A stretch of 58,925 bases of DNA from Actinomycetota bacterium (lineage in GTDB: Bacteria > Actinomycetota > Acidimicrobiia > Acidimicrobiales > Ilumatobacteraceae): assembly GCA_007279905.1 (NCBI GenBank), contig QYPH01000029.1, forward strand, positions 1 to 58,925. The letters are read 5' to 3'. Below, piece by piece: positions 12,079 to 31,365 of this stretch. The translations under genes were made by a program, and so were the position numbers. Under the pieces are notes generated by a model. That model searched no databases. It saw nothing but the letters and a program-made list of their open reading frames with translations, and was not told the origin of the DNA. The stretch's first letter is position 1, and each line of letters opens with the position of its first letter.

Positions 12079-12109
12079 GCCCTCAAAATCTAATCGCTAT
12101 CCTGATTCG

Positions 12110-13540: not shown

Positions 13541-14370
13541 TCCGACAACGGGTGACGGTGCCATCGATCCTGGAACGCAAGTCGCTACACAACACAGCGC
13601 AACATGCAGCGCAGCGGATCACGATGATCACTGCTTACGATGCAACCTTTGCTTCAATTGTCGACGAGTCGGGAGTGGACATCATTCTCGTTGGTGATTC
13701 TGTTGGTTCGGTGGTGCAAGGTGTAGCCACCACAATCCCCGTGACACTCGAGGAAATGGAATACCACGTACGGCTCGTGTCTCGCGCAAACCCGCGGGCT
13801 CTATTAGTTGGTGACTTACCTTTTGGTTCGTACCAAGTCAATTCGGAGCAAGGCGTGCGCAGCGCCATTCGTCTGATCAAGGCTGGCGCTTCAGCCGTCA
13901 AGCTTGAGGGTGGCGTCAACATGTTTGACACCATCTCGGCAATCAGTCGCGTCGACATTCCTGTCATGGGACACATTGGCCTTACTCCACAGAGCTACCA
14001 CCGTATGGGTGGTCACCGCGTGCAAGGACGTGCCGACAATCGCGACGCCGGTGGTCGCGAGCGACTCTTCGAAGACGCACACTCTGTTGAGCAAGCCGGA
14101 GCGTTTGCAGTTGTGCTGGAAGGCATCCCCCGTCAGCTCGCTCAAGAGATCACGCAGAAGGTTTCGATACCAACCATCGGTATTGGTGCCGGACCTGATT
14201 GCGATGGACAAGTGTTGGTGCTGCACGACATTCTTGGGCTCACCACTCACGAACTAAAATTCACCAAGCAATTTGCAGACATTCGCACAGCCAGTATCGA
14301 TGCTTGCACGGCTTTTGTTCAAGAAGTCCGCAGTGGACAGTGGCCTGATGACGCTCATTCATTCCACTAG
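13537..14370 (+). CDS. panB: 3-methyl-2-oxobutanoate hydroxymethyltransferase
   Basis: Motifs ITMITAYDATFASIVDESGVDIILVGDSVG, GHIGLTPQSYHRMGGHRVQGR, IGIGAGPDCDGQVLVLHDILG. ATGA overlap with the esterase stop. Confidence 0.95.
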   Translation: MIRQRVTVPSILERKSLHNTAQHAAQRITMITAYDATFASIVDESGVDIILVGDSVGSVVQGVATTIPVTLEEMEYHVRLVSRANPRALLVGDLPFGSYQVNSEQGVRSAIRLIKAGASAVKLEGGVNMFDTISAISRVDIPVMGHIGLTPQSYHRMGGHRVQGRADNRDAGGRERLFEDAHSVEQAGAFAVVLEGIPRQLAQEITQKVSIPTIGIGAGPDCDGQVLVLHDILGLTTHELKFTKQFADIRTASIDACTAFVQEVRSGQWPDDAHSFH

Positions 14371-15181
14371 CGAGTTCGATGCTTGGCGAAAGAACGTTGC
14401 CAATCAAACTGTTGCATTTGTTCCCACAATGGGTGCACTGCATAGAGGGCATCATTCACTGATCGCTCAAGCCGCAAAAGAATGCGACCTGGTAGTCGTA
14501 TCAATTTTTGTTAATGCCCTTCAGTTTGGCGATGCGAACGACTACATCAAGTATCCGCGCGACGAGCAGTCCGACTACCAAGCCAGTGTTTCCACCGGAG
14601 CAAACATCGTTTTTGCGCCTCAGCAGCAGGACGTATTTCCAGCCGACTTTGATTGCTACTTAACACCGTCATCTCTAGCAAACGACTTCGAAGGCAAGCA
14701 CAGACCGGGTCATTTTGCAGGCGTGGTAACCGTTGTTCATCGTCTTTTCGAAATCGTGCAACCCGATGTTGCGATTTTCGGAACAAAGGATTACCAGCAA
14801 GTTGCAGTCATTCGAGACATGTGCGGTGAGTTGCATCCAACTATTCGCATTGTTTCTTTTGAAACTGTTCGCGACTCGGATGGTCTCGCGCTCTCTAGTC
14901 GTAACGCGCGATTGAACACAGCCTCAAGACTTCAAGCCCAGATCATCCCGCGCGCACTGCAAGCAATTGCCAATTTGCATGCACAAGGCCAGAATCACTC
15001 ACACGTGCTCATAAATGAAGCTCTCAAGATTCTTGGCTCAGAACCGAGCATGCACGTGGAGTACTTGGAGATTGTGCAGAAAGACACGCTCGAACCTGTA
15101 GATGAAGCCCGAAACGCGGTGCTGCTCTTTGCGGGCGTGCTCGATGGCGTACGACTTATCGACAACCTTTTCCTGCAATAG
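14348..15181 (+). CDS. panC: Pantoate--beta-alanine ligase
   Basis: VAFVPTMGALHRGHHSLI, VFAPQQQDVFP, RPGHFAGVVTVVHRLFEIVQPDVAIFGTKDYQQ; start chosen at ATG 14348 (MTLIHSTSEF), overlapping panB. Confidence 0.95.
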   Translation: MTLIHSTSEFDAWRKNVANQTVAFVPTMGALHRGHHSLIAQAAKECDLVVVSIFVNALQFGDANDYIKYPRDEQSDYQASVSTGANIVFAPQQQDVFPADFDCYLTPSSLANDFEGKHRPGHFAGVVTVVHRLFEIVQPDVAIFGTKDYQQVAVIRDMCGELHPTIRIVSFETVRDSDGLALSSRNARLNTASRLQAQIIPRALQAIANLHAQGQNHSHVLINEALKILGSEPSMHVEYLEIVQKDTLEPVDEARNAVLLFAGVLDGVRLIDNLFLQ

Positions 15182-15212
15182 TTCGAGCGATCAAGCGATC
15201 AAGCGATCTTGG

Positions 15213-16658
15213 CTAACGATGCAGATCGGCATCGCGCTGCAACGCTCGATATCGCACGCTAAACACCGAGTCTCCTGACAAAATGCCACCGCGACCGAAC
15301 GTTCGACCGTTCTGCCAGTTAGACAGACCCAATTCAGGTTTGTTCAGAGCAAATTGCCCGTCCACCCAGCGCGTCATTCCGTTGCTCACAAATGGTGCGT
15401 TGGTTTTGCGCCAGACCATTTCTAACTCGGATTCGTTGTCTGAAATGATGGAAACAATAAAGTTCGGTGCATGCTGATTGAATAGCACAATTGCTTCGTC
15501 AACATCGTCCACAATGACCAAAGAGCACTCTGGCGTATTCTCCCACTCCCATTCAGTAGCAAGTTCATCTACCGAAAGATTGCGCACCTTCACTAGTTCG
15601 CTCTGATCGGCCATCAATTCTTGGGATGCTAAATCTGCATGAATAACCGCCTGTGCGTTTCGCAGCACTGCGGCTTGCATCATGGCGTCAACAAAGAGCG
15701 GCACCAACTCAACTGCTCGTGAGCGCACAAGGCAACACACATTGAGCGTGTTACAAACCTTGCGATCCAGCGAGTTCAATACAACTTTTGCAAACCATTG
15801 AGCATCGGCATGCTCTCCAGCAATCATCCATGCCCCGCCTGTGCCATGGAGGCTGACCGCGATACCGAATTGGCGAGCAACAGCACCCAGTTGCGATACT
15901 GCCTCGCCACTTCCCCGCGCAATGGCTAGTGAAACACGCTTGTCAGAAAAGAGAGCCCAGCCACTTGCGTGAGATCTTGACTCAACAAGACTTATGGCAC
16001 CAAGTGGCAGACCACACGATTCGAGCGCTGGCACTACTGCGAGATTCATGATGGCCTGTGCAGTGCCAAGAGCATCGCTACCGATGCGAAACACACACGT
16101 GTTGCCAGACCTCAACACTCCTGTCGCATCTGCAAACACATTTGGCCGTCCTTCAAAAACAAACGCAACAACGCCCAATGAAGATTTAGTCGCCGAGACC
16201 GACCAGCCTTGGTGATCAATCGATTCCATCTCTGATCCGTCGACATGAGGAGTACCGCCCCATGTATGAAGCGCCGAGATCATGTCACTGCGCATTGCAT
16301 CGGTCAGTATCAAGCGCGTGGTTGAGCGACTGCGCTGCATCGCAGATGCAACATCGTCTTCATTGCAAGATTTGATTTTGGCAAAGATTGCATCGTCTTC
16401 GAGTTTGTGTGCGAATGTATGAAAAAACTGAGAGATTTGCTCGCTCGAAACGCTCTTCAAGAGATCAAAAGCTAAAACACTCTGAGAGACAGCCTGAGTT
16501 GCCACGAGCAGATCGGCTTGTGGAACATGCAAGAGATGGCCTCCACTGAGGCCGATGATCAGGTCTCCTTCTCGATACTGATCAGCGATCCTTAAACCAA
16601 CCGGATGCGGTACACCATCAATGAGAATGATGTCCGTTGCTTGAAGCGTGTGGTTCAT
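15213..16658 (-). CDS. ProA-like aldehyde dehydrogenase (glutamate-5-semialdehyde dehydrogenase family), divergent
   Basis: 481 aa; VAFVFEGRPNVFADATGVLRSGNTCVFRIG and candidate catalytic Cys in DRKVCNTLNVCCLV; N-terminal extension relative to typical ProA. Confidence 0.75.
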   Translation of the reverse strand: MNHTLQATDIILIDGVPHPVGLRIADQYREGDLIIGLSGGHLLHVPQADLLVATQAVSQSVLAFDLLKSVSSEQISQFFHTFAHKLEDDAIFAKIKSCNEDDVASAMQRSRSTTRLILTDAMRSDMISALHTWGGTPHVDGSEMESIDHQGWSVSATKSSLGVVAFVFEGRPNVFADATGVLRSGNTCVFRIGSDALGTAQAIMNLAVVPALESCGLPLGAISLVESRSHASGWALFSDKRVSLAIARGSGEAVSQLGAVARQFGIAVSLHGTGGAWMIAGEHADAQWFAKVVLNSLDRKVCNTLNVCCLVRSRAVELVPLFVDAMMQAAVLRNAQAVIHADLASQELMADQSELVKVRNLSVDELATEWEWENTPECSLVIVDDVDEAIVLFNQHAPNFIVSIISDNESELEMVWRKTNAPFVSNGMTRWVDGQFALNKPELGLSNWQNGRTFGRGGILSGDSVFSVRYRALQRDADLHR

Positions 16659-17752
16659 TCGAGCACCTCTGAGATCAAAACGAGTCGACTTTGTTCGATA
16701 GACAAATGAGCAGCCTGTCCAATTGCAACCGAGATCAAACCTTCACGCAGCCCAACTTCGGCTTTTTGCCTATTACGAATTGCAGCCTGCATGAAGCGAT
16801 GTTCCTTGAATGACGCACCGTGATGAAATCCTTGCACCACATCCTCTTCCAATTCGATTGGAAAATCTTGAAACGTCCCGTAACCGTTCTTTCGTTTGCC
16901 GATTCTGACAATTGATTCGGAAATCATCGCTTCAATCTTTCCCTTGTCGCCAACAACACAGATCTCTTGCTCGTTCTTTGAGGCTTCAGCAAACATGCAA
17001 AGATCCAGCATGCCGCGCACTCCATTTTCAAAATTGACAATGACATAAGCGTTATCTAAAATGTCTGGAGTACGGCCACCGTAATTTTCGGACAGATGAT
17101 TGACATCTTGTGATCCGCTAGCCATCACCGACACTGGCGAGCTGTTGGCCAAAATGCACATCAGGTCAAAAAAGTGACAGCACTTCTCCACCAACGTGCC
17201 GCCCGTATTTGCATTGAAACGATTCCAGTCATCCACCTTTTCTAAGAATGGGTAGCGATGCTCCCTGATAGAAACCATTTGTACGTTTCCAATAGTGCCT
17301 TTGTCGATCTCTTGTTTTACGCGCGCCGTCGGTGCCATATATCGATACTCGAGGCCTACCCAAACGACCCGATCTTCAACTGTGGTAGCAGCCTCTATTT
17401 GTTCCAATTCCAGACACTCGGCGACGGTGATGCACAGAGGTTTCTCAATCAAGATGTGTTTTCCACTCTTCAGAACATCCTTCGCAATGTGAAAATGCGT
17501 GTGATTTGGTGTTGCGATCACCACCACATCGGCCTGACAGTGATTGAGCATCTCGACGTGATTTGCAAAATACCGAACACCTTCCATGCGATTTAATGCA
17601 CGCCGTGCCTTTTCGAGGCTTGGGGTATGCGGATCACACACCGCAACGATCTGTACTTCTGGCATCTCTACCAAGTTACGGATGTGCTCTAAGCCCATCA
17701 TTCCGCTACCGATGATTGCGTACTTCAATACTCGAGCATCTGCAATCGGCAT
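16655..17752 (-). CDS. Gfo/Idh/MocA family NAD(P)-dependent oxidoreductase
   Basis: Rossmann GSGMMGLEHIRN; VVIATPNHTHFHIAKDVLKSGKHILIEKPLC (EKP motif); ATGA overlap with the ProA-like gene. Confidence 0.92.
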   Translation of the reverse strand: MPIADARVLKYAIIGSGMMGLEHIRNLVEMPEVQIVAVCDPHTPSLEKARRALNRMEGVRYFANHVEMLNHCQADVVVIATPNHTHFHIAKDVLKSGKHILIEKPLCITVAECLELEQIEAATTVEDRVVWVGLEYRYMAPTARVKQEIDKGTIGNVQMVSIREHRYPFLEKVDDWNRFNANTGGTLVEKCCHFFDLMCILANSSPVSVMASGSQDVNHLSENYGGRTPDILDNAYVIVNFENGVRGMLDLCMFAEASKNEQEICVVGDKGKIEAMISESIVRIGKRKNGYGTFQDFPIELEEDVVQGFHHGASFKEHRFMQAAIRNRQKAEVGLREGLISVAIGQAAHLSIEQSRLVLISEVLE

Positions 17753-17784
17753 GCATGTAATCGTAGAACGCTAATCTTGCAAAT

Positions 17785-18519
17785 ATGTCTATAGCCCCAA
17801 TTTCCAATCCCGATTCAGATCAGATCTACTTCAAGCAACTACTCTCAGGCCGAGATTTCGCAACAGACAACCAACTTGCACAGCAAATGGTCAATTTTGT
17901 CTACCTCATTGGCGACAAATCGACCCGCGAGTGCATGATTGTCGACCCCGCGTATGCGGTTGAGGAGTTGCTGAGTGTTGCCGAGAAAGACGACATGAAC
18001 GTCGTTGGAGCGCTCGCTACCCATTACCACCCAGATCATGTGGGTGGATCGATGATGGGTGCAAACATCGATGGCATTGCAACACTGCTCGACAAACTAG
18101 ACATCCCTATCCATGTGCAGGAACTTGAAGCGCAATGGATCATGCGCACTACTGGTGTGTCAGCAAGTCACTTGCATCAGCATCAGCCGGGAGACACTGT
18201 CAAAGTAGGTGAGATTGAAATTTGTTTGGTGCATACACCTGGTCATACGCCCGGTAGCCAGTGCTTCTTGGTAGATAACCGACTCATTGCAGGAGACACA
18301 CTGTTTCTTGAAGGTTGCGGACGAACTGACTTGCCTGGATCAGACCCAAGCCAAATGTTTGACAGTCTGCAAACGTTGGCCGCACTTCCAGATCAGACAG
18401 TCGTCTATCCAGGACACCGGTATTCGGATCCTTCTTCGCGGGCTCTTCCTGAAGTTCGCCAAACCAACTATGTTTTTAAGCCAAAAACCAAAGCCGATTG
18501 GCTGCAGTGGTTTAGCTAG
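17785..18519 (+). CDS. MBL-fold metallo-hydrolase (glyoxalase II-like)
   Basis: THYHPDHVGGS (HxHxDH), VHTPGHTPGSQCF, IAGDTLF, VVYPGHRYSDPSSRALPE. Confidence 0.9.
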   Translation: MSIAPISNPDSDQIYFKQLLSGRDFATDNQLAQQMVNFVYLIGDKSTRECMIVDPAYAVEELLSVAEKDDMNVVGALATHYHPDHVGGSMMGANIDGIATLLDKLDIPIHVQELEAQWIMRTTGVSASHLHQHQPGDTVKVGEIEICLVHTPGHTPGSQCFLVDNRLIAGDTLFLEGCGRTDLPGSDPSQMFDSLQTLAALPDQTVVYPGHRYSDPSSRALPEVRQTNYVFKPKTKADWLQWFS

Positions 18520-19247
18520 CCAACAAATGCCGAGACAAGACTGCTCACACCACCAAGAGTTAAGAGCACCAACACCATCCTTTTAAAACGGACTGCGTCA
18601 ATATATACACGCGCTCTCGTTCCAATAAACACGCCGAGCAACATCAGCGGAGTTGTGAGTAACGCAACACGCAGCTCATCGAGATGAATCTTGCCCGCCA
18701 CAGCAAAAATAATGACGCTCGAAATGCCTGTCACCGAAAAAATGAGATTGAGAGTTGCACGTTGCACTTCCGGCATAAGTCTGCGCGCCTGCAACGTAAA
18801 TACGATCGGCGGCCCATTGGTCGATGTCGCCATCAGCAATACTCCACTGAGCCACCCCATTGTCCAATCCAGCGATTTGTGGGCATGCTGAAGATCGCGA
18901 CCCCGAGCAAGCATCCACACGCCAAAGAGCACCGCACATCCCAATAGCACCTTCATTACATCCTGATTTCCATATCGAAAAAGAGCGAGTCCGAAAGGAG
19001 CACCAAGACACGATGCGATGATAAATATCTTGGCGATCTCACGGTCGTGATGATGGCGCAATTGCCATGCCTGTCCAAAATTGCTGACAGTTCCTAGCAA
19101 GGTTGCGATAATCACGGCCTGATGTAAATCGATGAACAACACCATGACCGGCACAGCCAGGAGCGCAAACCCAAACCCTGCAGCAGCCTGGATCACCGAG
19201 GTGACCAAAATGATCACGGCAATGATCAACAAATGTTCTTGCGACAT
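18516..19247 (-). CDS. TauE/SafE family sulfite/anion exporter-like membrane protein
   Basis: 243 aa; ILVTSVIQAAAGFGFALLAVPVM (N-terminal GxGFG motif), multiple TM, FIGTRARVYIDAVRFKRMVLVLLTLGGVSSL. Confidence 0.85.
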   Translation of the reverse strand: MSQEHLLIIAVIILVTSVIQAAAGFGFALLAVPVMVLFIDLHQAVIIATLLGTVSNFGQAWQLRHHHDREIAKIFIIASCLGAPFGLALFRYGNQDVMKVLLGCAVLFGVWMLARGRDLQHAHKSLDWTMGWLSGVLLMATSTNGPPIVFTLQARRLMPEVQRATLNLIFSVTGISSVIIFAVAGKIHLDELRVALLTTPLMLLGVFIGTRARVYIDAVRFKRMVLVLLTLGGVSSLVSAFVG

Positions 19248-19270: not shown

Positions 19271-20641
19271 CTAGGCAGTGACAATTGCGTCAAGGGCTAG
19301 CGCAAAGACCGCAGTGTGTTTGTCAACATCGGCCGCGCTATGAAATGGCGACATCAGAGCCATATTGTGAAATGGCGCGAGCAACACACCACGATTGAGA
19401 CAAAAGAGATGCAAGAACGACTCCAGCATCGGATCAACTGCTGCTGCAGCCTGAGCGCCATCAACCGGAGGTGTGCAAAACCAGTACTCCGCGCGACAGC
19501 CCAACTGCTGTACATGCCAATCAAGATTTCGCTCGCTACAAACCTGTTCAACACCTTGCGTCCATCTTGTTGCCAACGGAATTGTTTGATCAAAATCCGC
19601 TTGGGTGAGTGCATGAGACAAGGTCGCCCTCATCGCACTCATTGCAAGAGCGCTTCCACTCAATGTTCCGCCAACTCCTGAAACATCCACATCGTGACCC
19701 GTCATAGCCGCCTCTAAGCGCGACGCAATGTCGCTGGTCATGCCATAGGCACCAACCGGAATGCCACCACCGATCGTCTTTCCGATGACCACAAAATCCG
19801 GGTCAATATTCCACAACTTGGTGCATCCGCCCGGTCCGGCACAGATTGTATGTGTCTCGTCAATCACAAGAAGCACATCAAATTTTCGAGTGAGGTTACG
19901 CACACCTTGTATGTAGCCATCTTGGGGAAGCACGATACCGATGTTTGTGAGTGCTGGCTCGATCAACACACATGCAACGTCACCGATTGCCAACACTCGC
20001 TCGAGTTCAGCCAAGTCATTAAATGGCACAACTCGCGTCGTGAGTGCAGGATCAACTTGCGGACCAATTGCTCCCGGTCGGCTGATCGTGTTGCCATCTG
20101 CGTTCCTAATCACGAGCGTCTCATCAACCGAACCGTGATAGCACCAGTCGTGCACAACAATTTTGGGGCGGCCTGTCAACATGCGAGCAAATCGGAGCAC
20201 AAACCTATTTGCATCGGTGGCACTGATTGCAAATTGCCACTTTGCAACACCAAACCTTTGGGCAAGGTTTTGAGCAACCCACTGCGCATCGCTAGTTGGC
20301 AACATCGTTGTCAAACCAAGTTGTGCTTGTTGCGTCACTGCTTGGGCAACAGCATCTAATGCGTGACCTGTCATTGCGCCTGTATCGCCCAGACAAAAAT
20401 CAACATATTCAATATCGTCCACGTCAACAAAACGAGCGCCGTGTGCTCTTTGTACGTGCAAAGGAAAACTTCCGGGCCAACGAGTCATCCACGGCATTGG
20501 CACCCCAGACAACAATGCTGTCTTGGCAGATTGGGCAAGGAGCATCGATTTCGGGTGAATGTCACAGAACAGTTGCTCTTCAGACTTCAGTGCGGCTGCA
20601 AGTTTGAGTCGATCAATCACACTGGCATTCTTACACGCCAC
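19271..20641 (-). CDS. Class III aminotransferase (glutamate-1-semialdehyde aminotransferase-like)
   Basis: PLP-lysine region VVIGKTIGGGIPVGAYG, LLVIDETHTICAGPGG, YHGSVDETL; start uncertain. Confidence 0.88.
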   Translation of the reverse strand: MACKNASVIDRLKLAAALKSEEQLFCDIHPKSMLLAQSAKTALLSGVPMPWMTRWPGSFPLHVQRAHGARFVDVDDIEYVDFCLGDTGAMTGHALDAVAQAVTQQAQLGLTTMLPTSDAQWVAQNLAQRFGVAKWQFAISATDANRFVLRFARMLTGRPKIVVHDWCYHGSVDETLVIRNADGNTISRPGAIGPQVDPALTTRVVPFNDLAELERVLAIGDVACVLIEPALTNIGIVLPQDGYIQGVRNLTRKFDVLLVIDETHTICAGPGGCTKLWNIDPDFVVIGKTIGGGIPVGAYGMTSDIASRLEAAMTGHDVDVSGVGGTLSGSALAMSAMRATLSHALTQADFDQTIPLATRWTQGVEQVCSERNLDWHVQQLGCRAEYWFCTPPVDGAQAAAAVDPMLESFLHLFCLNRGVLLAPFHNMALMSPFHSAADVDKHTAVFALALDAIVTA

Positions 20642-20687
20642 AAACGTGAAACGGATTGTTTATGACGAAATCTCTACACTGAGAGAA

Positions 20688-21953
20688 GTGAATACGAACA
20701 ACCCAATTGCTAGTGATTTTGATGACCTGCGCATCGACTCTGCACGATTGATGGACCGAATCATGAGCCTTGCCGAGGTCTCGCCTATCGCTGGTGGCGG
20801 CAACTGTCGACTCGCACTCACCGACGAAGATCGTGACGGACGTGATTTAGTGGTGTCGTGGATGCGAGACCTCAACATGGATGTCTCTATTGACGCAGTC
20901 GGAAACATCATTGCCTACTGGAATGTTGGTTCAGGCGCACCAGTAATGACAGGTAGCCATATCGACACTGTGCGCACAGGCGGCAAGTTCGATGGCAACT
21001 ACGGCGTACTTGCTGGTCTGGAAGTTGTCGAAACCTGCCAACGCAATGGATACATTCCGTCTCGCCCATTAGCCGTTGGGATTTTCACCGACGAAGAAGG
21101 TGCGCGTTTCGCCCCCGACATGCTCGGGTCGCTCGTCTATGTCGGCGGCATGACCACCGAAGAGGCCCTCGACATCACTGCAATTGACGGACCACGCTTA
21201 GGCGATGAACTCGTTCGTATTGGTTACGCAGGATCAGCTCCATGCCCCGGCGTTGTTCCCCACAGTTTCGTTGAGTTACACATTGAGCAAGGCCCATTGC
21301 TCGAGGCAAACAATGTTCGCATCGGGGTGGTAACTGGCGTTCAGGGCATCTCATGGCAAGAAGTCACTGTTGTTGGACAGTCAAATCATGCAGGCACTAC
21401 GCCAATGTCGTTGCGTCATGACCCCACCTATGTTGCAGCAGAAATCGCTGTCTTCTTGCGGCAGTTGAGCGCGCGTTTCGGTGGGCACCAAGTATGCACG
21501 GTCGGCAAAGTTGATGTTTTTCCAAACCTCATCAACGTTGTCGCTGCTCGTGTCACCCTCACTCTCGACGTGCGCAACACCGACGAAAAACTATTGCAAC
21601 AAGCCGAACACGAAATTTCCGAATTCTTGACCCAAATTGCAAGAGCAGAGGGCGTCCAGATCACCACAAAGAAACTCGCCCGTTTTGAACCAGTTGATTT
21701 TGACCCACGCGTGATCGACATCGTTGAGTCAATTGCCAAACAACAAGGCAACACCACAAGACGCATGCCGTCAGGCGCTGGTCACGATGCCCAGATGCTT
21801 GCGCGGGTCTGCCCAACAGCGATGATTTTTGTGCCGAGCGTCAATGGCATCAGTCATAATCCTGCCGAACACACCGACACAGATGATTTAGTGGCAGGAG
21901 CAAATATTCTTTTACATACCATGCTGACCCTGTGCGCAACAGATCTCCAATGA
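20688..21953 (+). CDS. Zn-dependent hydrolase, N-carbamoyl-L-amino acid hydrolase/allantoate amidohydrolase family (M20)
   Basis: VMTGSHIDTVRTGGKFDGNYGVLAGLEV, FTDEEGARFAPDMLGS, FVELHIEQGPLLE, MPSGAGHDAQ. GTG at 20688 (VNTNNPIASDF) chosen; the longer ORF (20559) overlaps the divergent gene. Confidence 0.9.
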   Translation: MNTNNPIASDFDDLRIDSARLMDRIMSLAEVSPIAGGGNCRLALTDEDRDGRDLVVSWMRDLNMDVSIDAVGNIIAYWNVGSGAPVMTGSHIDTVRTGGKFDGNYGVLAGLEVVETCQRNGYIPSRPLAVGIFTDEEGARFAPDMLGSLVYVGGMTTEEALDITAIDGPRLGDELVRIGYAGSAPCPGVVPHSFVELHIEQGPLLEANNVRIGVVTGVQGISWQEVTVVGQSNHAGTTPMSLRHDPTYVAAEIAVFLRQLSARFGGHQVCTVGKVDVFPNLINVVAARVTLTLDVRNTDEKLLQQAEHEISEFLTQIARAEGVQITTKKLARFEPVDFDPRVIDIVESIAKQQGNTTRRMPSGAGHDAQMLARVCPTAMIFVPSVNGISHNPAEHTDTDDLVAGANILLHTMLTLCATDLQ

Positions 21954-21990
21954 AGCGGCTGAAGCGGATGAATATGAAAGTATTGAGCGC

Positions 21991-22914
21991 ATGACGAGAC
22001 TTCTTCATGTTGGTGCAGCACAACTTGGGCCAATTCAGCAATCAGATGACAGGGCTTCTGTCGTCATCCGTTTGATCGAACTTTTGCGCCAAGCCAAAGC
22101 AGCGAAGTGCGAACTTGTTGTGTTTCCAGAACTTGCACTCACAACGTTTTTCCCACGATGGTTCGTCGACGATATTGCTACAACAGATCATTGGTATGAA
22201 ACCGAGATGCCTTCGGCTGTGACGCTGCCACTCTTCCTAGAGGCTAAACGACTCGAAATTGGTTTTTGTCTCGGCTATGCAGAACTCACACCACAGGGTG
22301 AACGATTTAATACTCAAATCTTGGTCGAGCGCGACGGTTCGGTCGTCGCCAAATATCGCAAAGTGCATATTCCTGGACACGAGACGAACGAGCCAGACCG
22401 ACCATTTCAACATGCCGAGCGCTACTACTTCACACCCAGCGCCGAAGGGTTTGGTGTTTGGAAAGCATTTGGTGGGCGTATGGGCATGATGATCTGCAAT
22501 GACCGGCGTTGGCCAGAGTCGTATCGAGTGATGGGATTACAGGGAGTCGAAATGATTCTCTGTGGCTACAACACCCCAATGCACTATGTACCAGATCCGA
22601 CACAGGATGTGTTGCAAGGCTTTCACAATGCTCTCGTTATGCAAAGTGGCGCCTACCAAAACGGAACATTTGTAGTTGGTGTCGCCAAAGGTGGTGTGGA
22701 AGAAGGAGTCTTGGGCCTCTGCGACTCGAGCATCATCGCCCCATCGGGAGAAATTCTTGCCAAGACTGTCACTACTGGCGACGAGTTGGTCTCGGCTGTT
22801 TGTGATCTGGATTGGTGCAAACAGTACAAAGAAACCTTGTTTGACTTCGATAAATATCGTCGACCCGAGGTCTATGGCCGAATAACTGCACAACGGGGTG
22901 CGGTTCTCGATTGA
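21991..22914 (+). CDS. Nitrilase-superfamily N-carbamoyl-D-amino acid hydrolase-like protein
   Basis: VVFPELALTTFFPRWF, KYRKVHIPGHE, MMICNDRRWPESYRVMGLQGVEMILCGYNTPMH. These blocks closely match N-carbamoyl-D-amino acid amidohydrolase as I recall it; Glu-Lys-Cys triad residues present. Confidence 0.88.
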   Translation: MTRLLHVGAAQLGPIQQSDDRASVVIRLIELLRQAKAAKCELVVFPELALTTFFPRWFVDDIATTDHWYETEMPSAVTLPLFLEAKRLEIGFCLGYAELTPQGERFNTQILVERDGSVVAKYRKVHIPGHETNEPDRPFQHAERYYFTPSAEGFGVWKAFGGRMGMMICNDRRWPESYRVMGLQGVEMILCGYNTPMHYVPDPTQDVLQGFHNALVMQSGAYQNGTFVVGVAKGGVEEGVLGLCDSSIIAPSGEILAKTVTTGDELVSAVCDLDWCKQYKETLFDFDKYRRPEVYGRITAQRGAVLD

Positions 22915-22930
22915 TCCAGATCGCCACCCA

Positions 22931-22953
22931 TTGCTTAACATTTTGTAAAGCAA
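22931..22953. promoter_or_regulatory. Operator-like palindrome upstream of the molybdenum-hydroxylase operon
   Basis: TTGCTTAACA-TTT-TGTAAAGCAA: 9/10 matched arms around a 3-nt centre, 20-29 bp upstream of the candidate starts (22973 or 22982). Confidence 0.55.
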
Positions 22954-22972
22954 ATGCTGTAGCGTAAAACCC

Positions 22973-25594
22973 GTGACTGCTATGGACTTGGGCTCCCCAA
23001 ACGACCTCCGTATCGCTTTCACTGTCAACGAAACTCCGGTGAGCGTGCGGGCAAACCACCCCCATCTATTGGCAGCACTGCGCGAAGAACTCGACATCAC
23101 CTCGCCAAAGGATGGTTGTTCTCCGTCAGGCCAATGCGGGTGTTGCACTGTTTTGGTGAATGGCAAGGCAGTGGTCAGTTGTCAAACACCTCTGTCCAAA
23201 GTTGCGGGTGGAACAGTTACGACCCTTGAAGGCGTCGACGAAGAAGAACGCAGCCGCTACTCGCAAGCATTTGCTGCATGTGGCGGATTGCAGTGTGGTT
23301 TTTGTATTCCAGGCATTGTTGTGCGCGCCAAGGCTCAAGTTGACAAAAAGGGTGCTGCGCTGCAACGCAGCGATATGGCAAAGCATCTCGGCGCACATCT
23401 GTGTCGTTGCACTGGATACGTCAAAATTCTTGATGCGGTCTTGATGGTCGCGCGAGGTGAAGTGCCCGTTTTAGTACAACCAGGTGGTGTTGGTACTCGT
23501 ACGGTCAAGTACGAAGCCCAAGCTCTTGCACTAGGCGATCGTGGCTACATCGACGACATCCGTATTCCTGGCATGCTGCATGCAGCACTTGTATTCACTC
23601 AACACACTCGCGCCGACGTCACTGCAATCGATGCAACTACTGCCCTACAGATGCCAGGTGTTCGTGCCGTGTTTACTGCAGCCGATATTCCGGGCGAACT
23701 CATGGTTGGCATCATCTATAAAGACTGGCCAGTGATAATTCCAGTTGGCGGTCGCACATCATATGCAGGCGACGTACTCGCCATCGTCGTTGCCGAAACC
23801 CGAGACGAGGCTCGAGCCGCGACTCAATTTGTCGACGTGCAGTACACCGTGCACACTCCACTCACCGATCCGGTTGCTGCAATGTCCAGTAGCGAGATTG
23901 CAGTCTGGAAAACTGACAACAACATCTTGAGCACGAGTCGATATAAACGAGGCGACACACAAATCGCTCTCAGTACGAGCGTGCATGTTGTTGAAGAAAC
24001 TTTTGTGACGCAACGAATCGAACATGCTTTTTTAGAGCCAGAAAGCACCGTTGCAGTACCTTCCGATGACGGCAAATCATTGCACGTGTATTCGGGCGGC
24101 CAAGGTATTTGGGACGACCGAAATGACATTGCATCAGTGCTCAACCTCGACAATGCCCAAGTCACCGTCGAGTTGGTAACAAACGGCGGCGCGTTTGGTG
24201 GCAAAGAAGACATGAGCAATCAGGCCCATGCAGCCTTAAGCGCATGGCTGTTGCAACAACCAGTCAAGTGCACACTCTCGCGAGAGGAAAGTCTGTTGAT
24301 GCATGCCAAGCGGCATCCCATCACCATGCAGTACAAAGCCTCGTGTGATGCAACCGGCAAACTCACCGCGCTACACGTGCGAGCGATTGGTGACTCTGGC
24401 GCGTACGCCAGTGTTGGAATGAAGGTTCTCGAGCGCATGGCTGGCCATGCAAGTGGTCCGTATGAAGTTCCTAATATCGATGTTGAAGCAATTGCCGTGC
24501 GCACCAACAACCCGGTGTGCGGTGCATTTCGCGGCTTCGGTGCAAACCAAGCGCAATTTGCAATGGAAGGAGTGATGGATCGACTGGCTGCAAAAGTTGG
24601 CATCGATGGGTGGACAATGCGTCAACGAAACGTCATCATGCCAGGACGGGTGTGGGGCCCAGGACAAATCATGGACGAAGGTTGCCTCGGTGCATCCGAG
24701 TGTCTCACAGCGATTAAGCCCGCATACGACGAAGCCCGAGCAGCAGGCAAAGCAATCGGCCTCGGACTTGGTCTCAAAAATAGTGGCCTCGGCAATGGGT
24801 TCAAAGAGATCAACCGAGCGGTTATCCGATTTAGAGAAGACGGACGCGTTGAAGTTCGTCACGGCTGGACAGAGATGGGCCAAGGTATCAACACCGTTGC
24901 ATTGCAAGTTGCGGTGCACGAACTTGGCATAGATGGCAACCTCATCGATGTCATCGTTGACACCACTCGCGAACTCGGGCTTGGGCAAACAACCGGTTCA
25001 CGCGGAACACTCATGGGTGCGGGCGCCGTCAAAGACGCATGCGATGTAGCCAAAGCCGCACATTGTGCTGTCGGTGTCGATCACGTTGGCGAATATCGCG
25101 TTGATTGGACAAACAAGCTCGGCGAACCAGGTGTCACAAATCCGATCATCCACTCCACCTTTGGCTATGCGGCGCAACTCGTCGTCATCGATCGTGAGAC
25201 CAGCAAGATCGAGCTCGTTGTTGCTGCCCACGATGTTGGCAAGGCAGTCAACCCGCAACTCTGTGAAGGACAAATTCAGGGCAGCGTGCACATGGGTCTT
25301 GGCTACGCGCTCTCCGAAGACTTCCCAAGCGATCCCGAAACTGGCTTCCCCTTGAACAAAACGCTTCGGTCGCTCAAGATCTTGCGCGCTAAAGACATCC
25401 CGACAATCGAAGTTATTCTTGTCGAGTCACCACAGCCAAACTCTCCATACGGGATCAAGGGTGTTGGAGAAATCGGACTCGTGCCTACTGCGGGTGCTGT
25501 TGCTGCAGCCTTTTACGACCTCGACGGCACATGGCATACAACACTTCCGATGCTCAAATCAACAAGCGATTCAAACACCGACTCCGAGGATTAG
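22973..25594 (+). CDS. Molybdenum hydroxylase, fused 2Fe-2S + molybdopterin subunits (XdhD/Se-dependent-XDH-like architecture)
   Basis: N-terminal 2x[2Fe-2S] motifs CSPSGQCGCCTVLVNGKAVVSC and CGGLQCGFCIPG...HLCRCTGY fused to a Mo-binding domain (NGGAFGGKEDMS, CGAFRGFGANQAQFAME, GIKGVGEIGL catalytic Glu). Start 22973 (GTG) or 22982 (ATG). Confidence 0.92.
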   Translation: MTAMDLGSPNDLRIAFTVNETPVSVRANHPHLLAALREELDITSPKDGCSPSGQCGCCTVLVNGKAVVSCQTPLSKVAGGTVTTLEGVDEEERSRYSQAFAACGGLQCGFCIPGIVVRAKAQVDKKGAALQRSDMAKHLGAHLCRCTGYVKILDAVLMVARGEVPVLVQPGGVGTRTVKYEAQALALGDRGYIDDIRIPGMLHAALVFTQHTRADVTAIDATTALQMPGVRAVFTAADIPGELMVGIIYKDWPVIIPVGGRTSYAGDVLAIVVAETRDEARAATQFVDVQYTVHTPLTDPVAAMSSSEIAVWKTDNNILSTSRYKRGDTQIALSTSVHVVEETFVTQRIEHAFLEPESTVAVPSDDGKSLHVYSGGQGIWDDRNDIASVLNLDNAQVTVELVTNGGAFGGKEDMSNQAHAALSAWLLQQPVKCTLSREESLLMHAKRHPITMQYKASCDATGKLTALHVRAIGDSGAYASVGMKVLERMAGHASGPYEVPNIDVEAIAVRTNNPVCGAFRGFGANQAQFAMEGVMDRLAAKVGIDGWTMRQRNVIMPGRVWGPGQIMDEGCLGASECLTAIKPAYDEARAAGKAIGLGLGLKNSGLGNGFKEINRAVIRFREDGRVEVRHGWTEMGQGINTVALQVAVHELGIDGNLIDVIVDTTRELGLGQTTGSRGTLMGAGAVKDACDVAKAAHCAVGVDHVGEYRVDWTNKLGEPGVTNPIIHSTFGYAAQLVVIDRETSKIELVVAAHDVGKAVNPQLCEGQIQGSVHMGLGYALSEDFPSDPETGFPLNKTLRSLKILRAKDIPTIEVILVESPQPNSPYGIKGVGEIGLVPTAGAVAAAFYDLDGTWHTTLPMLKSTSDSNTDSED

Positions 25595-25600
25595 ATCTTC

Positions 25601-26668
25601 GTGCCAAACACCACTCGCGGGCTCGTGTGCGCGCACCACCACTTGTATTCATCATTGGCGCGCGGAATGCCGGCTCCGAAGCAAACTCCAACAGGTTTCA
25701 TCGAAATACTTCAGCAAGTTTGGTGGAGACTCGATGCCGCATTGGATGCAGACATGATCTATTGGTCGGCCGCGCTCGGTGCTGTTGAGGCATTAATGAA
25801 TGGCACTACCGCAATTGTTGACCATCACGAATCGCCAAACGCAATTGAGGGTTCGTTGTCGATTATCGCTCAAGCATGTGGTGATGTGGGTGTCCGCGTC
25901 AACACGTGTTACGGCATTTCCGATCGCTGGGACGATGTCGGCAATCTACATTCCAAGATCTCGCCATTGTCTCCGATGTCGAGTGCTGCAAAGCGCGGCC
26001 TTGCTGAGTGTGAGCGCTTTATAGCTGAAGGTGGAAACGGAATGGTGGGTGTGCACGCTGCATTTACGTGTGGCGATGAAACACTGAGCGCCGCGGCGCA
26101 ACTCGCAGACAAATTGAATGTTGGAGTCCACATCCACGTTGCAGAGGGAGTAGATGATTCGCATGCCGGATCACGCCTCGCGCACTTGGCCAAAAGCAAC
26201 TGGCTCTTAGTGCATGGAGTTCATCTCAATGAGCCCCTCAAAGGTCGCCTCGTGCACAACCCACGATCCAACATGAACAACCATGTTGGCTACGCCAAAC
26301 CAACTACACAATCAAATACCATTCTGTTGGGCACAGACGGCATTGGAGCAGACATGCTTGAAGAAGCACGACTGGCTTATGCACGACTTCGTGAATTTGA
26401 TATAGCTGAAACACCCGACACAGTTGCTCAGTGGCTGAGCAATGGATATCAACTTTTTCCAGAAGCGGCAAACGATACGGTGACGTGGAATTACGATCAT
26501 GTTGAGAGCCCTTGGCATGTTGCATTTACTCCAGGAACTCGTGTTACCGATGTTGTGATTGATGACCAAGCAGTAATCCGCAACGGGTTGCCAACACGTG
26601 TCGACATCCAAGAGATCCGCGCCAAGGCACAAGAACAATCTGTACGACTATTTGAAAGGCTCAACTGA
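25601..26668 (+). CDS. SsnA-like amidohydrolase, N-terminally truncated
   Basis: [20 protein letters not shown] metal motif at the very N-terminus, [41 protein letters not shown]: SsnA-type blocks. Begins 6 bp after the preceding stop. Confidence 0.85.
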
Positions 26669-27726
26669 TGTCTCAACCATCACATGCAATTAATCCACAA
26701 GCAATCAATCCGCTTACTGGTAAAGCACGAGTTGCCATCTACCTGCAGGATGCTCATCGCATTCGCGAGGGCATGGAATATGCGCAATACGCAGAGTCCA
26801 AAGGCTTCGAAGCAGTGTGGCAAGCAGAGAGTCGGCTCGTGCGCGAAGCAACGGTTCCCATGGCCGCATTTGCATCGGTGACCAAAACCATCAAGGTCGG
26901 TTCGGGTGTTGTTGACTGTTGGAGCCGCAACCCTGCCCGACTTGCAGCAACATTTTCAACTTTGGATGATCTCGCTCCTGGTCGCGTGATACTCGGTATC
27001 GGCGCATGGTGGGATCCATTGGCACAAAAAGTAGGCATCTCGCGCGCCAAGCCTTTGCGTGCAATGCGCGAGATCGTGCTCAATGTGCGAGCACTACTCA
27101 ACAACGAAAATGTGACCTTCAATGGCGAGTTCGTCAAGTTTGATGGAATCGAATTGGATTATGTCTATCAAGATCGCCGTGCCAAAGATGTGCCAATTTA
27201 TATTGGGGCAACCGGCATGCAAATGATGGAACTCACCGGAGAAATTGCGGATGGTGTTGTGCTCAACTATCTCGTCTCCCCCGATTACAACAGACAAGCA
27301 ATCGAGGCGCTTACTGTTGGCGCCGACAAGGCTGGTCGCAAGATTGCCGACATTGACAGGCCTCAGTTGGTTGTGTGCAGCGTGCACGAAGACAGAAAGA
27401 CCGCACTCAACATGGCACGCGAAATGGTGACGCAATACTTGGGTCAACAACCACACATCATGAAAGCATCTGGAGTGCCACAAAGCTTGCTCGACAAGGT
27501 TGGCGAAGTTCTGACATGGCCGGCCACACACGAGCAAGTAACTGCTGCTTCCAAGTTGGTGCCCGACGAGATCGTTCAGATGCTCACTGCAAGCGGCACA
27601 CCTGCAGAAGCGCGTGCAAGTGTCAAGCACTACATCGACAACGGTGCAACATGCCCGATTTTGTATCCACTGGGTGACGTCAAAGCAATGATCGACACAT
27701 TTGCAGATTGGGACGGCGTGAAGTGA
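26668..27726 (+). CDS. LLM-class flavin-dependent oxidoreductase (Mer/F420-dependent-like)
   Basis: 352 aa; [67 protein letters not shown] overlap with the upstream gene. Confidence 0.88.
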
Positions 27727-28571
27727 CCGTTGCTGTACCGCTGTCGCTTGCTGAGGCATTTGATGAACTCTCGCGCACACCAGATGCACGACTCATTCAA
27801 GGCGGCACCGACCTCATGGTTGAGATCAACTTCAATCATGTCAAACCCGCAAACGTGATTGCACTGCGGCGCATCAAAGAATTGCGCACATGGCACGTCA
27901 ATAGCAACAACACCATCACTATTGGGTCCGGTGTTCCCTATCAAGAAATGGAAACGGGACAACTCAAAGAACTACTGCCGGCTCTCGCAGAAGCAGCACG
28001 CACAGTTGGCTCACCACAGATCCGTGCCGCAGGAACGCTTGGTGGAAATCTGGGTACCTGTTCACCAGCAGGCGACGGACTTCCCGTACTTTTTGCGCTC
28101 GACGCAATCGTGCACCTGCAAAGCCTCGAGTCATCGCGAGATCTCTCTATTCACGACTTCATGCTCGGCGTAAAGCGCAATGCCCGTACTGCAAACGAGA
28201 TCATCACAGGGGTGACGGTGCCAGTCCTTGATGGTTGGCAGGGTTACGCAAAAGTTGGTGTACGAAACGCAATGGTGATATCCGTTGCTTCAGCTTGTCT
28301 TGCTGTTGACAAGAAAAGCAATTCTGTTCGCATCGCTCTCGGTGCTGTTGGCCCAACGATCATTCGCTGTCGAGATGCAGAATCTTGGCTTGTGCAGCAA
28401 TTCGATCTCAGCATTGCGACAAGCATCGACCCAGCAATTGCTCTCGAATTTGGAAGACGAGTGGCCCTCGAATCAAAGCCCATCGATGATCATCGCTCCA
28501 CTGCCGACTACCGTCGCCATGCCGTAGGGGTTCTTGCCAAACGACTCATCACGAGGGCATACCCTTCATGA
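27723..28571 (+). CDS. Molybdenum hydroxylase FAD-binding subunit (XdhB/CoxM-like)
   Basis: [60 protein letters not shown] overlap with the upstream stop. Confidence 0.92.
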
Positions 28572-29098
28572 ACAACTCAATTGGAAATGAAATGTACACA
28601 CTTCACATCAATGGCCAAGACCGCCCTGTCAAAGATGCATGGGTTGGCGAGAGTCTGCTCTACGTGTTGCGCGAACGTCTTGAGTTGCCCGGCGCCAAAG
28701 GAGCGTGCGAGCAGGGTGAATGTGGAAGTTGCACGGTAATAATGGACGGCGATGCTGTGTGTTCGTGTCTTGTGATGGCGGCGACTGCGGTAGGTGCCGA
28801 CATCGTGACCGTTGAGGGTCTGATCGAGAACGATCCATCGATGGCAGTAACTGCCCAAACAATTACCAGTCAAATAACTGATGTGCAACAGGCATTCATC
28901 GAAGAAGGTGGCGTGCAATGCGGATTTTGCACACCTGGCCTCATCGTTGCAGTGCATCATTTACTCGAAAAGAATCCTGAACCAACGGAATTACAAGTCA
29001 AAGAATCAATCTCTGGCAACATCTGCCGTTGTACTGGATATGGTCGCATTTTTGCAGCTGTTGAAGCAGTCGTTCAAGTGCGTAAGGCGTCCCGATGA
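28568..29098 (+). CDS. Molybdenum hydroxylase 2Fe-2S subunit (XdhC/CoxS-like)
   Basis: CEQGECGSCTVIMDGDAVCSCL and VQCGFCTPGLIV...GNICRCTGYGRI; ATGA overlap. Confidence 0.94.
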   Translation: MNNSIGNEMYTLHINGQDRPVKDAWVGESLLYVLRERLELPGAKGACEQGECGSCTVIMDGDAVCSCLVMAATAVGADIVTVEGLIENDPSMAVTAQTITSQITDVQQAFIEEGGVQCGFCTPGLIVAVHHLLEKNPEPTELQVKESISGNICRCTGYGRIFAAVEAVVQVRKASR

Positions 29099-31365
29099 GC
29101 ACAGTCAAACAAGACACGCGTCATCGCGACATACTTGGCACGAGCGCCCTTCGCCCAGACGGTGTAGCCAAAGTGACGGGCGCCTTTTCATTCTCATCCG
29201 ACATGTGGGCAGAAAACATGCTGTGGGGTGCGACGCTACGTTCGCCTCATCCCTACGCACGCATTATTTCTATTGACACGACCGCGGCGCTGCTCATCAG
29301 TGGAGTCTCAGCAGTCATTACCGCCCAAGACGTTCCGGGCAAAGCAACATATGGTTTGATCTCTGCAGATCAGCCTGTGTTTGCATCCGACTTCGTTCGC
29401 TACATGGGCGAACCAATCGCCGCTGTTGCAGCCGACCATCCAGAGACCTGTCGTCGAGCTCTCGCGGCAATCATCGTCAACTACGAAGTACTCACGCCAG
29501 TTGTAGATCCAGAATTGGCAATGCTTGCAACAACCGAACAGATCCATCCCGACGGCAATCTCATTCGCCATCAACACATTCTCCACGGTGAAGCACACAT
29601 CACAAGCGACATCACGGTTGAAGGCAACTACACGATCGGCATGCAAGACCAAGCTTTCCTGGGGCTCGAAGCCGCAATGGCATTCCCCGATTCGGGTGGC
29701 AATGGCGTCGAGTTGCACATTGCAACACAGTGGTTACACGAAGACCGTGGCCAAATAGCTGCGTGCCTCAACCTGCCAGAAGACAGTGTTCGTGTAGTAC
29801 TTGGCGGCGTTGGTGGAGCCTTCGGGGCACGCGAAGACATCAGTTTGCAAGTGCACTGCTGTTTACTCGCGTTGCGCACTGGCAGACCAATCAAGATGCA
29901 GTACAGCCGCGAAGAAAGCTTTTTCGGACACGTGCATCGTCATCCCGCCAAAATCTGGATGAAACATCACGCAACAAAAGAAGGCAAGATCGTCAAGGTT
30001 GAATCGAGAATGGTATTTGACGGCGGTGCGTACACCAGCACATCACCTGCTGTGTTGATCAATGGCATCACCCATACCCAAGGGCCATACCAATGCGACA
30101 ACGCTGTGGTCGATGGATATGCAGTACGCACCAACAATCCACCATGTGGTGCAATGCGTGGCTTTGGAGTTGTACAAGCCTGCTTCGCTCACGAAAGCCA
30201 GATGGACAAACTGGCCCACGCATGTGGACTCTCGCCCGTCGAAGTGCGACTCATCAACGCAATGCACACCGGCGACAAATTGATTACTGGTCAGGTCATG
30301 GAAAGCGTTGCACCCGTCGAGCGTTGCATCCGCGAGACTGATTTAATCCCACTACCTGCTCCCCTTGCACTCGATGCCAATGTGCTTGAGTTTCCTGGTG
30401 GCAGCGGTCGCACAGCAGACAGACACAATATTGTCCGTGGCATCGGTTGGGGTGTGTCAATGAAAAACCTTATGTACTCCGAGGGCTTCGACGACTATGC
30501 GACGGCACGGTGCACGTTGTCAAATGGCATTGCTTCACTCAAGTTTGCAACATCAGAAGTAGGCCAAGGTTTCGTTACTCTTGCTCCTCAGATCGCACGC
30601 AGTGTGCTGGGTGTCGATGATGTCGTGCTCGAAACTTCCGACACCCAAATAGGTTCCGCTGGCTCAACCTCGGCATCTCGACAAACATGGATGAGCGGTG
30701 GCGCTGTTGACGGAGCGTGCAGGTTGGTGCGCGAACGCCTCTTTGAACATGTTGGCAGGCTGCACAACATCGATCCAATCCGACTCATGATCGAACATAC
30801 CGACGTGATCGACACCATCGGCACATTTCGCATCAGTGTTACTCAAGCAACTCAAGGCATCACGTTGTCCGAAACTTTTGAGCATCACCACCGCAAAACA
30901 GAAGACTTAGATGAAAACGGTCAGGGCAACTGCCACGTTGCTTTTGCCTTTGTCGCCCACCGTGCAGTTGTCGACGTGGATATTGAGCTCGGTCTCGTCA
31001 AAGTGGTACAAGTCGCTACCGCTCAAGACGTTGGTCGAGTGCTCAATCCACTCTCGGCACTTGGACAGCTTGAGGGTGGTATTGCCCAAGGCCTCGGCCT
31101 TGCCGTGATGGAGGAAATCATTCTGGATAACGGACGAGTCAAGAACCCAAGCTTCACCGACTATCTGTTGCCTACCGCGCTTGATGCTCCACACGTCGTT
31201 GCGATCATGATCGAAGAACCAGAACCCCAAGCGCCATTGGGCGCCAAAGGCATCGGCGAACCACCATGCATTTCAGTTACTCCCGCAATCGTCGCAGCTA
31301 TTCGTGCTGCAACGGGTAAAGCACTTTCACGAGTGCCAGTACGTCCTCAAGATATCTGTTTGTAA
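29095..31365 (+). CDS. Molybdenum hydroxylase large molybdopterin-binding subunit (XdhA/CoxL-like)
   Basis: 756 aa; GGVGGAFGAREDIS, CGAMRGFGVVQACFAHES, TSDTQIGSAGSTSASRQTWMSGGAV, GAKGIGEPPCISVTPAI. Confidence 0.94.
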   Translation: MSTVKQDTRHRDILGTSALRPDGVAKVTGAFSFSSDMWAENMLWGATLRSPHPYARIISIDTTAALLISGVSAVITAQDVPGKATYGLISADQPVFASDFVRYMGEPIAAVAADHPETCRRALAAIIVNYEVLTPVVDPELAMLATTEQIHPDGNLIRHQHILHGEAHITSDITVEGNYTIGMQDQAFLGLEAAMAFPDSGGNGVELHIATQWLHEDRGQIAACLNLPEDSVRVVLGGVGGAFGAREDISLQVHCCLLALRTGRPIKMQYSREESFFGHVHRHPAKIWMKHHATKEGKIVKVESRMVFDGGAYTSTSPAVLINGITHTQGPYQCDNAVVDGYAVRTNNPPCGAMRGFGVVQACFAHESQMDKLAHACGLSPVEVRLINAMHTGDKLITGQVMESVAPVERCIRETDLIPLPAPLALDANVLEFPGGSGRTADRHNIVRGIGWGVSMKNLMYSEGFDDYATARCTLSNGIASLKFATSEVGQGFVTLAPQIARSVLGVDDVVLETSDTQIGSAGSTSASRQTWMSGGAVDGACRLVRERLFEHVGRLHNIDPIRLMIEHTDVIDTIGTFRISVTQATQGITLSETFEHHHRKTEDLDENGQGNCHVAFAFVAHRAVVDVDIELGLVKVVQVATAQDVGRVLNPLSALGQLEGGIAQGLGLAVMEEIILDNGRVKNPSFTDYLLPTALDAPHVVAIMIEEPEPQAPLGAKGIGEPPCISVTPAIVAAIRAATGKALSRVPVRPQDICL

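Follow-up and report, generated by a model that had tools for sequence, protein, structure and literature searches.

A likely F420-dependent variant of the reductive uric-acid pathway in a molybdenum hydroxylase and carbamoylase gene cluster of aquatic Acidimicrobiia

What does an actinobacterium degrade with two molybdenum (Mo) hydroxylases, an SsnA-like amidohydrolase, two carbamoylases and an LLM-class enzyme encoded side by side, and does it do so by oxidation or by reduction? The nine genes that raise this question lie in a 58,925-nucleotide stretch of Ilumatobacteraceae DNA (GCA_007279905.1, contig QYPH01000029.1; the whole stretch is called the window here), which is contig C19 of a 1.54-Mb genome, G000, that is 69% complete. 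A preliminary description made from the letters alone had read the cluster as an oxidative route for an N-heterocycle, related to the ygfK-ssnA-xdhD purine clusters, in which ring opening precedes the action of two carbamoylases. Comparison with related genomes supports the purine relationship, the two Mo hydroxylases, a ring-opening role for the amidohydrolase and late carbamoylases, but it points to the opposite chemistry: the likely function is the reductive uric-acid (yanthine) pathway, in a variant that depends on F420. All nine open reading frames (ORFs) were found, and Pfam and NCBIfam profile searches place them in the families that the preliminary description had named:

19271..20641, minus strand: class III (GSA-aminomutase-like) aminotransferase (AT3); PRK07046 at 623 bits, over the cutoff of 425; best PDB match 5ykr, 420 bits
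20688..21953, plus strand: M20 hydantoinase/carbamoylase-family hydrolase (M20); TIGR01879 at 405 bits, over the cutoff of 204; PDB 5thw, 353 bits; 8c46 (N-carbamoyl-beta-alanine amidohydrolase), 278 bits
21991..22914, plus strand: N-carbamoyl-D-amino acid hydrolase of the nitrilase fold (NIT); PDB 8i99/6lcg, 380-382 bits
22973..25594, plus strand: fused Fe-S/Mo enzyme of the xanthine dehydrogenase (XDH) family, putatively in the XdhD/XdhAC role (XDHf); TIGR03311 at 818.1 bits, cutoff 830.45
25601..26668, plus strand: one-domain SsnA-like amidohydrolase (SsnA); 35% identity to E. coli SsnA
26668..27726, plus strand: LLM-class enzyme resembling the F420-dependent methylene-H4MPT reductase, MER (LLM); F420 MER 1z69, 136 bits; top Foldseek matches F420-MER
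27708..28571, plus strand: FAD subunit of a Mo hydroxylase, XdhB-like (FAD); PF00941 and PF03450; XdhB_XDHase at 180 bits, under the cutoff
28568..29098, plus strand: 2Fe-2S subunit, PucE/XdhC-like (FeS); PF00111 and PF01799; pucE at 154 bits
29095..31365, plus strand: Mo-binding subunit, PucD-like (Mo); TIGR03196 pucD at 817.1 bits, over the cutoff of 783.65

All nine are genuine open genes in an operon-like arrangement. The eight plus-strand genes are co-directional and the aminotransferase is divergent; 37 bp separate M20 from NIT and 58 bp NIT from the fused XDH, which ends 6 bp before SsnA, and the remaining genes overlap by 1-19 bp. The open frame of M20 extends back to 20559, which lies within the divergent aminotransferase gene, and its homology starts at residues 38-57; the in-frame GTG at 20688 is its likely start. 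We looked for each pathway part in 100 related genomes and compared gene order in 136 loci, with gene calls in GC-rich relatives made under a GC3 filter; because G000 is incomplete, its absences alone mean little, and the nearly complete genome G003 served as a check. The closest named relatives of the host are Ilumatobacteraceae and other metagenome-assembled genomes of Acidimicrobiia, including freshwater 'acIV' bins and the marine MedAcidi-G1 and MED-G01. The cluster is conserved across Ilumatobacteraceae. A set of genes not conserved together would have spoken against a joint pathway, as the preliminary description recognised; the neighbourhood comparison finds the order (aldh)-(gfo)-mbl-tauE-AT3-M20-NIT-XDHf-SsnA-LLM-FAD-FeS-Mo retained in the genus and nearby genera, and this order, with the flanking tauE, mbl, gfo and aldh, indicates that the arrangement is not due to chance. 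In more distant relatives a core of NIT, XDHf, SsnA and LLM persists, frequently accompanied by M20, and the other genes are lost or relocated; the adjacency of XDH and SsnA is conserved.

The pathway to which we compare the cluster was characterised in 2025 in E. coli and Clostridium (PMC12507026). There, XdhD leads to yanthine, which YgfK (or UacX) reduces; SsnA and HyuA then carry out the ring openings, the two ureido groups are taken off by YgeW (or UacY) and YgeY, and pyruvate is formed by YgeX (PMC12507026, PMC12990295). The E. coli cluster reads xdhD-ygfM-ssnA-ygfK-hyuA-ygeW-ygeY-ygeX, and C. difficile has UacX and UacY (PMC12507026).

The best supported claim of our analysis is that the LLM enzyme acts as a reductase in place of YgfK. 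The short form of SsnA occurs in 68 of the 100 related genomes; 60 of these carry only an LLM orthologue (at least 66% identity), 8 carry only the N-terminal (flavin) half of YgfK, and none has both or neither. Since the genomes are related, we take the count by genus as the honest one: 30 genera have LLM, 5 have YgfK, 2 are mixed and none has neither. Each of the two mixed genera holds different species of the two kinds, so the swap has occurred more than once. The two genes occur together in 0 of the 136 loci, and a search with TIGR03315 at E<=1e-60 returned no YgfK in G000 or its 22 genus relatives (UacX was not searched for). It is this exchange with a reductase, together with the steps shared with the reductive urate pathway, that tells against the oxidative direction first proposed. 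Like C. difficile UacX, the YgfK of the relatives has no FAD/NAD(P)H domain, which suggests an electron donor other than NADH; one ORF of a relative that at first had no name (c19) is also a YgfK without the FAD domain. In six loci (L063, L064, L066, L069, L202, L211) the YgfK relatives are ~600 aa long and retain the flavin half at the N terminus and a ferredoxin domain at the C terminus, with the FAD/NAD(P)H middle part gone.

By both sequence and fold the LLM protein is closest to MER, and all of its top matches (MER, ADF, FGD) are F420-dependent. MER (PDB 1z69/8qpl) is the closest solved relative and an F420-dependent reductase, but at ~25-28% identity, and with a score far under the MER cutoff (168 bits vs 348.7, TIGR03555), the LLM protein is not MER itself; its predicted model is of modest confidence (pLDDT 68.7). 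F420 biosynthesis, as cofD, is present in 90 of the 100 genomes, the host genome included (the G003 copy lies on C66), and F420H2 is the putative electron donor.

Several bridging loci set the LLM gene among genes with reactions proven elsewhere, and we regard them as stronger evidence for its putative function than any single-gene annotation. In L208 (G077), M20-NIT-XDHf-SsnA-LLM-YgeX lie on one strand, and L210 (G090) reads YgeX-LLM-XDHf-NIT-M20. L211 (G083), NIT-XDHf-SsnA-YgeX-YgfK, is the same set with YgfK in the place of LLM. L201 (G183), from another class, reads YgeX-XDHf-HyuA-SsnA-LLM-YgeW, and L207 (G160) reads PALP-YgeY-XDHf-SsnA-LLM-FAD-FeS-8-oxoguanine deaminase-Mo-YgeW.

The route that these comparisons suggest would run in eight steps. 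The FAD/Fe-S/Mo enzyme (27708-31365) would convert (hypo)xanthine to urate (step 1), and the fused XDH-family enzyme would reduce urate to 2,8-dioxopurine, or yanthine (step 2). The LLM enzyme would then dearomatise yanthine with F420H2, in the place of YgfK (step 3), after which the one-domain SsnA would open the pyrimidine ring to give ureidomethyl-hydantoin (step 4) and HyuA (G000:C53) would open the hydantoin to give (R)-2,3-diureidopropionate (step 5). The D-carbamoylase would hydrolyse the 2-ureido group to leave D-albizziin, replacing YgeW or UacY (step 6), and the M20 enzyme would remove the 3-ureido group, the YgeY role, to leave 2,3-diaminopropionate (step 7). The last step would fall to a pyridoxal phosphate (PLP) enzyme, which in relatives would be YgeX or a member of the PALP family and in this genome may be the aminotransferase (step 8). 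We infer steps 2, 4, 5, 7 and 8 from reactions proven for E. coli or Clostridium enzymes, and steps 1, 3 and 6 from homology and gene exchange.

The SsnA-like protein is 355 aa long and lacks ~55 residues that E. coli SsnA has at its N terminus. It keeps the HxH/H/H/D metal residues, and its best families are PRK07203 and TIGR03314 (245 and 232 bits), below both family cutoffs (455.5 for TIGR03314); it was thus probably missed by the IPR017700-based network of the earlier study (PMC12507026). Its AlphaFold model is a single barrel (pLDDT 92.4) with isocytosine deaminase as the best PDB match, and we propose that it opens the ring of dihydro-yanthine. A frameshifted or broken pseudogene was considered and rejected, as the short form is conserved in relatives and folds confidently.

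The nitrilase, called D-carbamoylase-like in the preliminary description, was placed in the right family and can be named more closely: it is a D-carbamoylase by sequence, with 382 bits to PDB 8i99 and 66 bits to the next nitrilase type. Its similarity to the D-carbamoylases of hydantoin-utilising bacteria (PDB 8i99, 6lcg, 1fo6) is full-length and includes the catalytic residues E47-K124-C169 and the arginine pair R172-R173. Unlike theirs, its gene accompanies SsnA and XDH and not only a hydantoinase, which suggests a natural substrate. The enzyme is encoded in 63 of 68 SsnA-positive and 2 of 32 SsnA-negative genomes and never shares a locus with YgeW (136 loci). Because it is a D-carbamoylase by sequence and avoids YgeW in this way, it is probably the enzyme that takes the 2-ureido group from (R)-2,3-diureidopropionate in the place of YgeW or UacY. 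This role fits the R configuration proposed for that compound in a review that lists its stereochemistry as open (PMC12990295) and the D-specificity of UacY and HyuA (PMC12507026). We found no YgeW in the genus and a distant one elsewhere in 3 of the 100 relatives (UacY was not searched for). In those three genomes (G031, G035, G053), the distant YgeW-like carbamoyltransferase and a paralogue of the C-terminal half of YgfK lie on other contigs, possibly of the ureidoglycine carbamoyltransferase type. The M20 enzyme is proposed to cleave the 3-ureido group. Its likeness to ErtE (352 bits vs a cutoff of 520) led us to consider ergothioneine degradation, which has no place for SsnA, LLM or a fused XDH and was rejected.

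The assignment of urate reduction to one of the two Mo enzymes is tentative. The fused enzyme scores slightly under the cutoff for Se-dependent xanthine dehydrogenase (TIGR03311) and retains XDH Glu802 (E412), Arg880 (R488), Phe914 and the catalytic Glu (E833), as do 11 of 11 orthologues checked; the specificity residue proposed for E. coli XdhD, E606, sits in an unalignable loop. The separate Mo subunit, which passes the PucD cutoff, has Glu at XDH position 802 and Asn at 880, and is missing from the clusters of many relatives. As a core member, the fused enzyme is more likely to be the urate reductase than the FAD/FeS/Mo enzyme, which is PucD-like and not always present; we propose that the latter is an accessory XDH that feeds the route by converting (hypo)xanthine to urate. 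The FAD subunit may also serve the fused enzyme, by analogy to YgfM. Neither Mo subunit appears to be a CO or aldehyde dehydrogenase, as the CoxL model gives 196 bits against a cutoff of 991 and PucD and TIGR03311 are the best models.

The remaining steps draw on genes outside the cluster. A HyuA-type D-hydantoinase over the TIGR02033 cutoff is encoded in the host genome (G000:C53; C1 in G003) and in 60 of the 100 relatives, in 58 of 68 SsnA-positive vs 4 of 32 SsnA-negative genomes. The operon around it (L215, G003:C1, 582-8229; L214, G000:C53; L216, 8477-15000) runs from HyuA through a methylmalonate/malonate-semialdehyde dehydrogenase (TIGR01722, over cutoff) and a second LLM protein (TIGR03842, 599 bits vs a cutoff of 295) to an ABC transporter with an NMT1/THI5 protein, and in L216 it is preceded by a nitrilase similar to N-carbamoylputrescine amidase. 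The operon resembles reductive pyrimidine catabolism with an F420 LLM in the position of PydA, which could be a candidate F420-dependent uracil reductase, and HyuA may serve both the pyrimidine and the urate routes. YgeX occurs in 8 of the 100 relatives, all SsnA-positive, and mostly adjoins LLM. A PALP family (503 aa, PLP fold, weak PF00291) is found in 57 of 68 SsnA-positive and 4 of 32 SsnA-negative genomes (for example L068:5133-6644 and G003:C60:6466-7929; it adjoins a second PALP gene in L205 and L207) and for the most part complements YgeX: of the 11 SsnA-positive genomes that lack PALP, 6 carry YgeX, and the two occur together in only 2 genomes. This distribution makes it a candidate 2,3-diaminopropionate lyase replacing YgeX. 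The aminotransferase, put forward in the preliminary description as a fixed last step, adjoins the cluster in the genus and nearby genera, only in small-genome lineages, and is present in 37 of 68 SsnA-positive genomes; YgeX or the other PLP lyase family tracks SsnA far better, and the aminotransferase is probably accessory or lineage-specific.

Several observations weigh against this reconstruction. It is comparative throughout, and because the genomes are related, Fisher p values for the gene associations overstate their independence. HyuA in this genus sits in the pyrimidine-like operon, so its part in this route is a borrowed one; the genus lacks YgeX, and a search of the host genome (69% complete) gave no PALP candidate. 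The full XDH-type Glu802/Arg880 pair, at both positions of which E. coli XdhD differs, means that the fused enzyme could oxidise xanthine rather than reduce urate, so that the two Mo assignments may be reversed.

Might the chemistry be oxidative after all? The Mo hydroxylases would then make urate, an oxidase outside PF01014 would lead to allantoin, the M20 enzyme would be an allantoate amidohydrolase, the carbamoylase would act on ureidoglycine-type products and LLM would be a side enzyme. The M20 protein does score over one 'allantoate amidohydrolase' subfamily cutoff (426.7 vs 399) and slightly under another (449 vs 452), and the Mo subunit exceeds the PucD cutoff. We nonetheless judge this reading unlikely. 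PF01014 uricase was found in 0 of the 100 genomes by a search that was positive for the B. subtilis and H. volcanii controls (HpxO and PuuD-type urate oxidases were not searched for), and the conserved core of SsnA, XDH and NIT with either LLM or YgfK carries reductive markers. A D-carbamoylase and a D-hydantoinase would be unexpected in an oxidative route, and YgeX, YgeW and YgeY share these loci.

We give a still smaller chance to a different heterocycle (a pterin such as isoxanthopterin, an isocytosine-type ring or a hydantoin) being degraded by the same enzyme classes. XDH-family enzymes are promiscuous, and the fold neighbours of SsnA include, besides isocytosine deaminase, the Sargasso Sea amidohydrolase 3hpa. 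Against this, the sequence likeness is to SsnA itself (245 bits), YgfK, YgeX, YgeW and YgeY in the relatives' loci fit 2,8-dioxopurine chemistry, and an 8-oxoguanine deaminase, of which the product is urate, is found there as well. Least probable is an oxidative ring opening by LLM, a role along the lines that the preliminary description had raised as possible, with LLM as an FMN-dependent monooxygenase of the RutA kind: RutA (5wan) belongs to the same superfamily but ranks 43rd among the fold matches, behind F420-dependent ones. LLM and the reductase YgfK also replace each other one for one, and the F420 pathway is present.

The reductive, F420-dependent reading places the cluster beside published systems, although the preliminary description had held it to differ from those known. 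It shares with the E. coli and C. difficile clusters the XDH-family and SsnA core, a HyuA in the genome, and D-type 2-ureido hydrolysis separate from 3-ureido hydrolysis; the relatives' loci further share YgfK, YgeX, YgeW, YgeY and HyuA. It differs in having LLM for YgfK/UacX, the D-carbamoylase for YgeW/UacY, a hydantoinase-type M20 enzyme for YgeY and a one-domain SsnA, in HyuA lying outside the cluster, in the lack of YgeX in the genus, and in its hosts, which are aquatic plankton and not gut anaerobes. Nor is the F420 swap itself new. Chloroflexota clusters without YgfK/UacX hold a luciferase-family (PF00296), putatively F420-dependent protein beside SsnA, which was noted without a test and proposed as yanthine reductase (PMC12507026); that paper covers no Acidimicrobiia, does not test for complementarity and is silent on carbamoylases and nitrilases. 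What appears new is the evidence that LLM and YgfK exclude one another, the D-carbamoylase step, the one-domain SsnA, the candidate lyase replacing YgeX and the planktonic hosts. A literature search, with many journals outside its reach, returned no earlier description of this route in Acidimicrobiia.

The surroundings of the cluster add some detail. Upstream (15213-19247) lie an aldehyde-dehydrogenase-fold protein (ProA-like, 130 bits vs a cutoff of 289), a Gfo/Idh/MocA oxidoreductase, an MBL hydrolase and a TauE exporter, all retained in the genus and nearby genera; directly upstream of these are panB and panC of pantothenate synthesis (13525-15181), syntenic in several relatives too. Inverted repeats were looked for at the cluster ends and none was found, and Rfam gives a total of only two tRNAs for the window. 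For guesses at the substrate, L057 (G085) is the richest single locus: its SsnA-LLM operon is followed (11835-19159) by an amidase, a MATE transporter, an 8-oxoguanine deaminase (over cutoff), a creatininase-like protein and a D-hydantoinase (over cutoff).

In summary, we lean towards a reductive, F420H2-dependent breakdown of urate in aquatic actinobacteria, presumably aerobic given their surface-water origin, with a MER-like LLM protein as yanthine reductase and a D-carbamoylase that takes off the 2-ureido group. If this is correct, a new function would be added to the F420 enzymes, and the D-carbamoylases, known as industrial enzymes, would gain a candidate physiological role. The R (D) stereochemistry of the route would be fixed, with a genetic argument for the configuration. 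The pathway, which has been seen as restricted to gut anaerobes, would extend to lakes and the sea, and purine recycling by the reductive route would be an environmental process across lake and ocean Acidimicrobiia.

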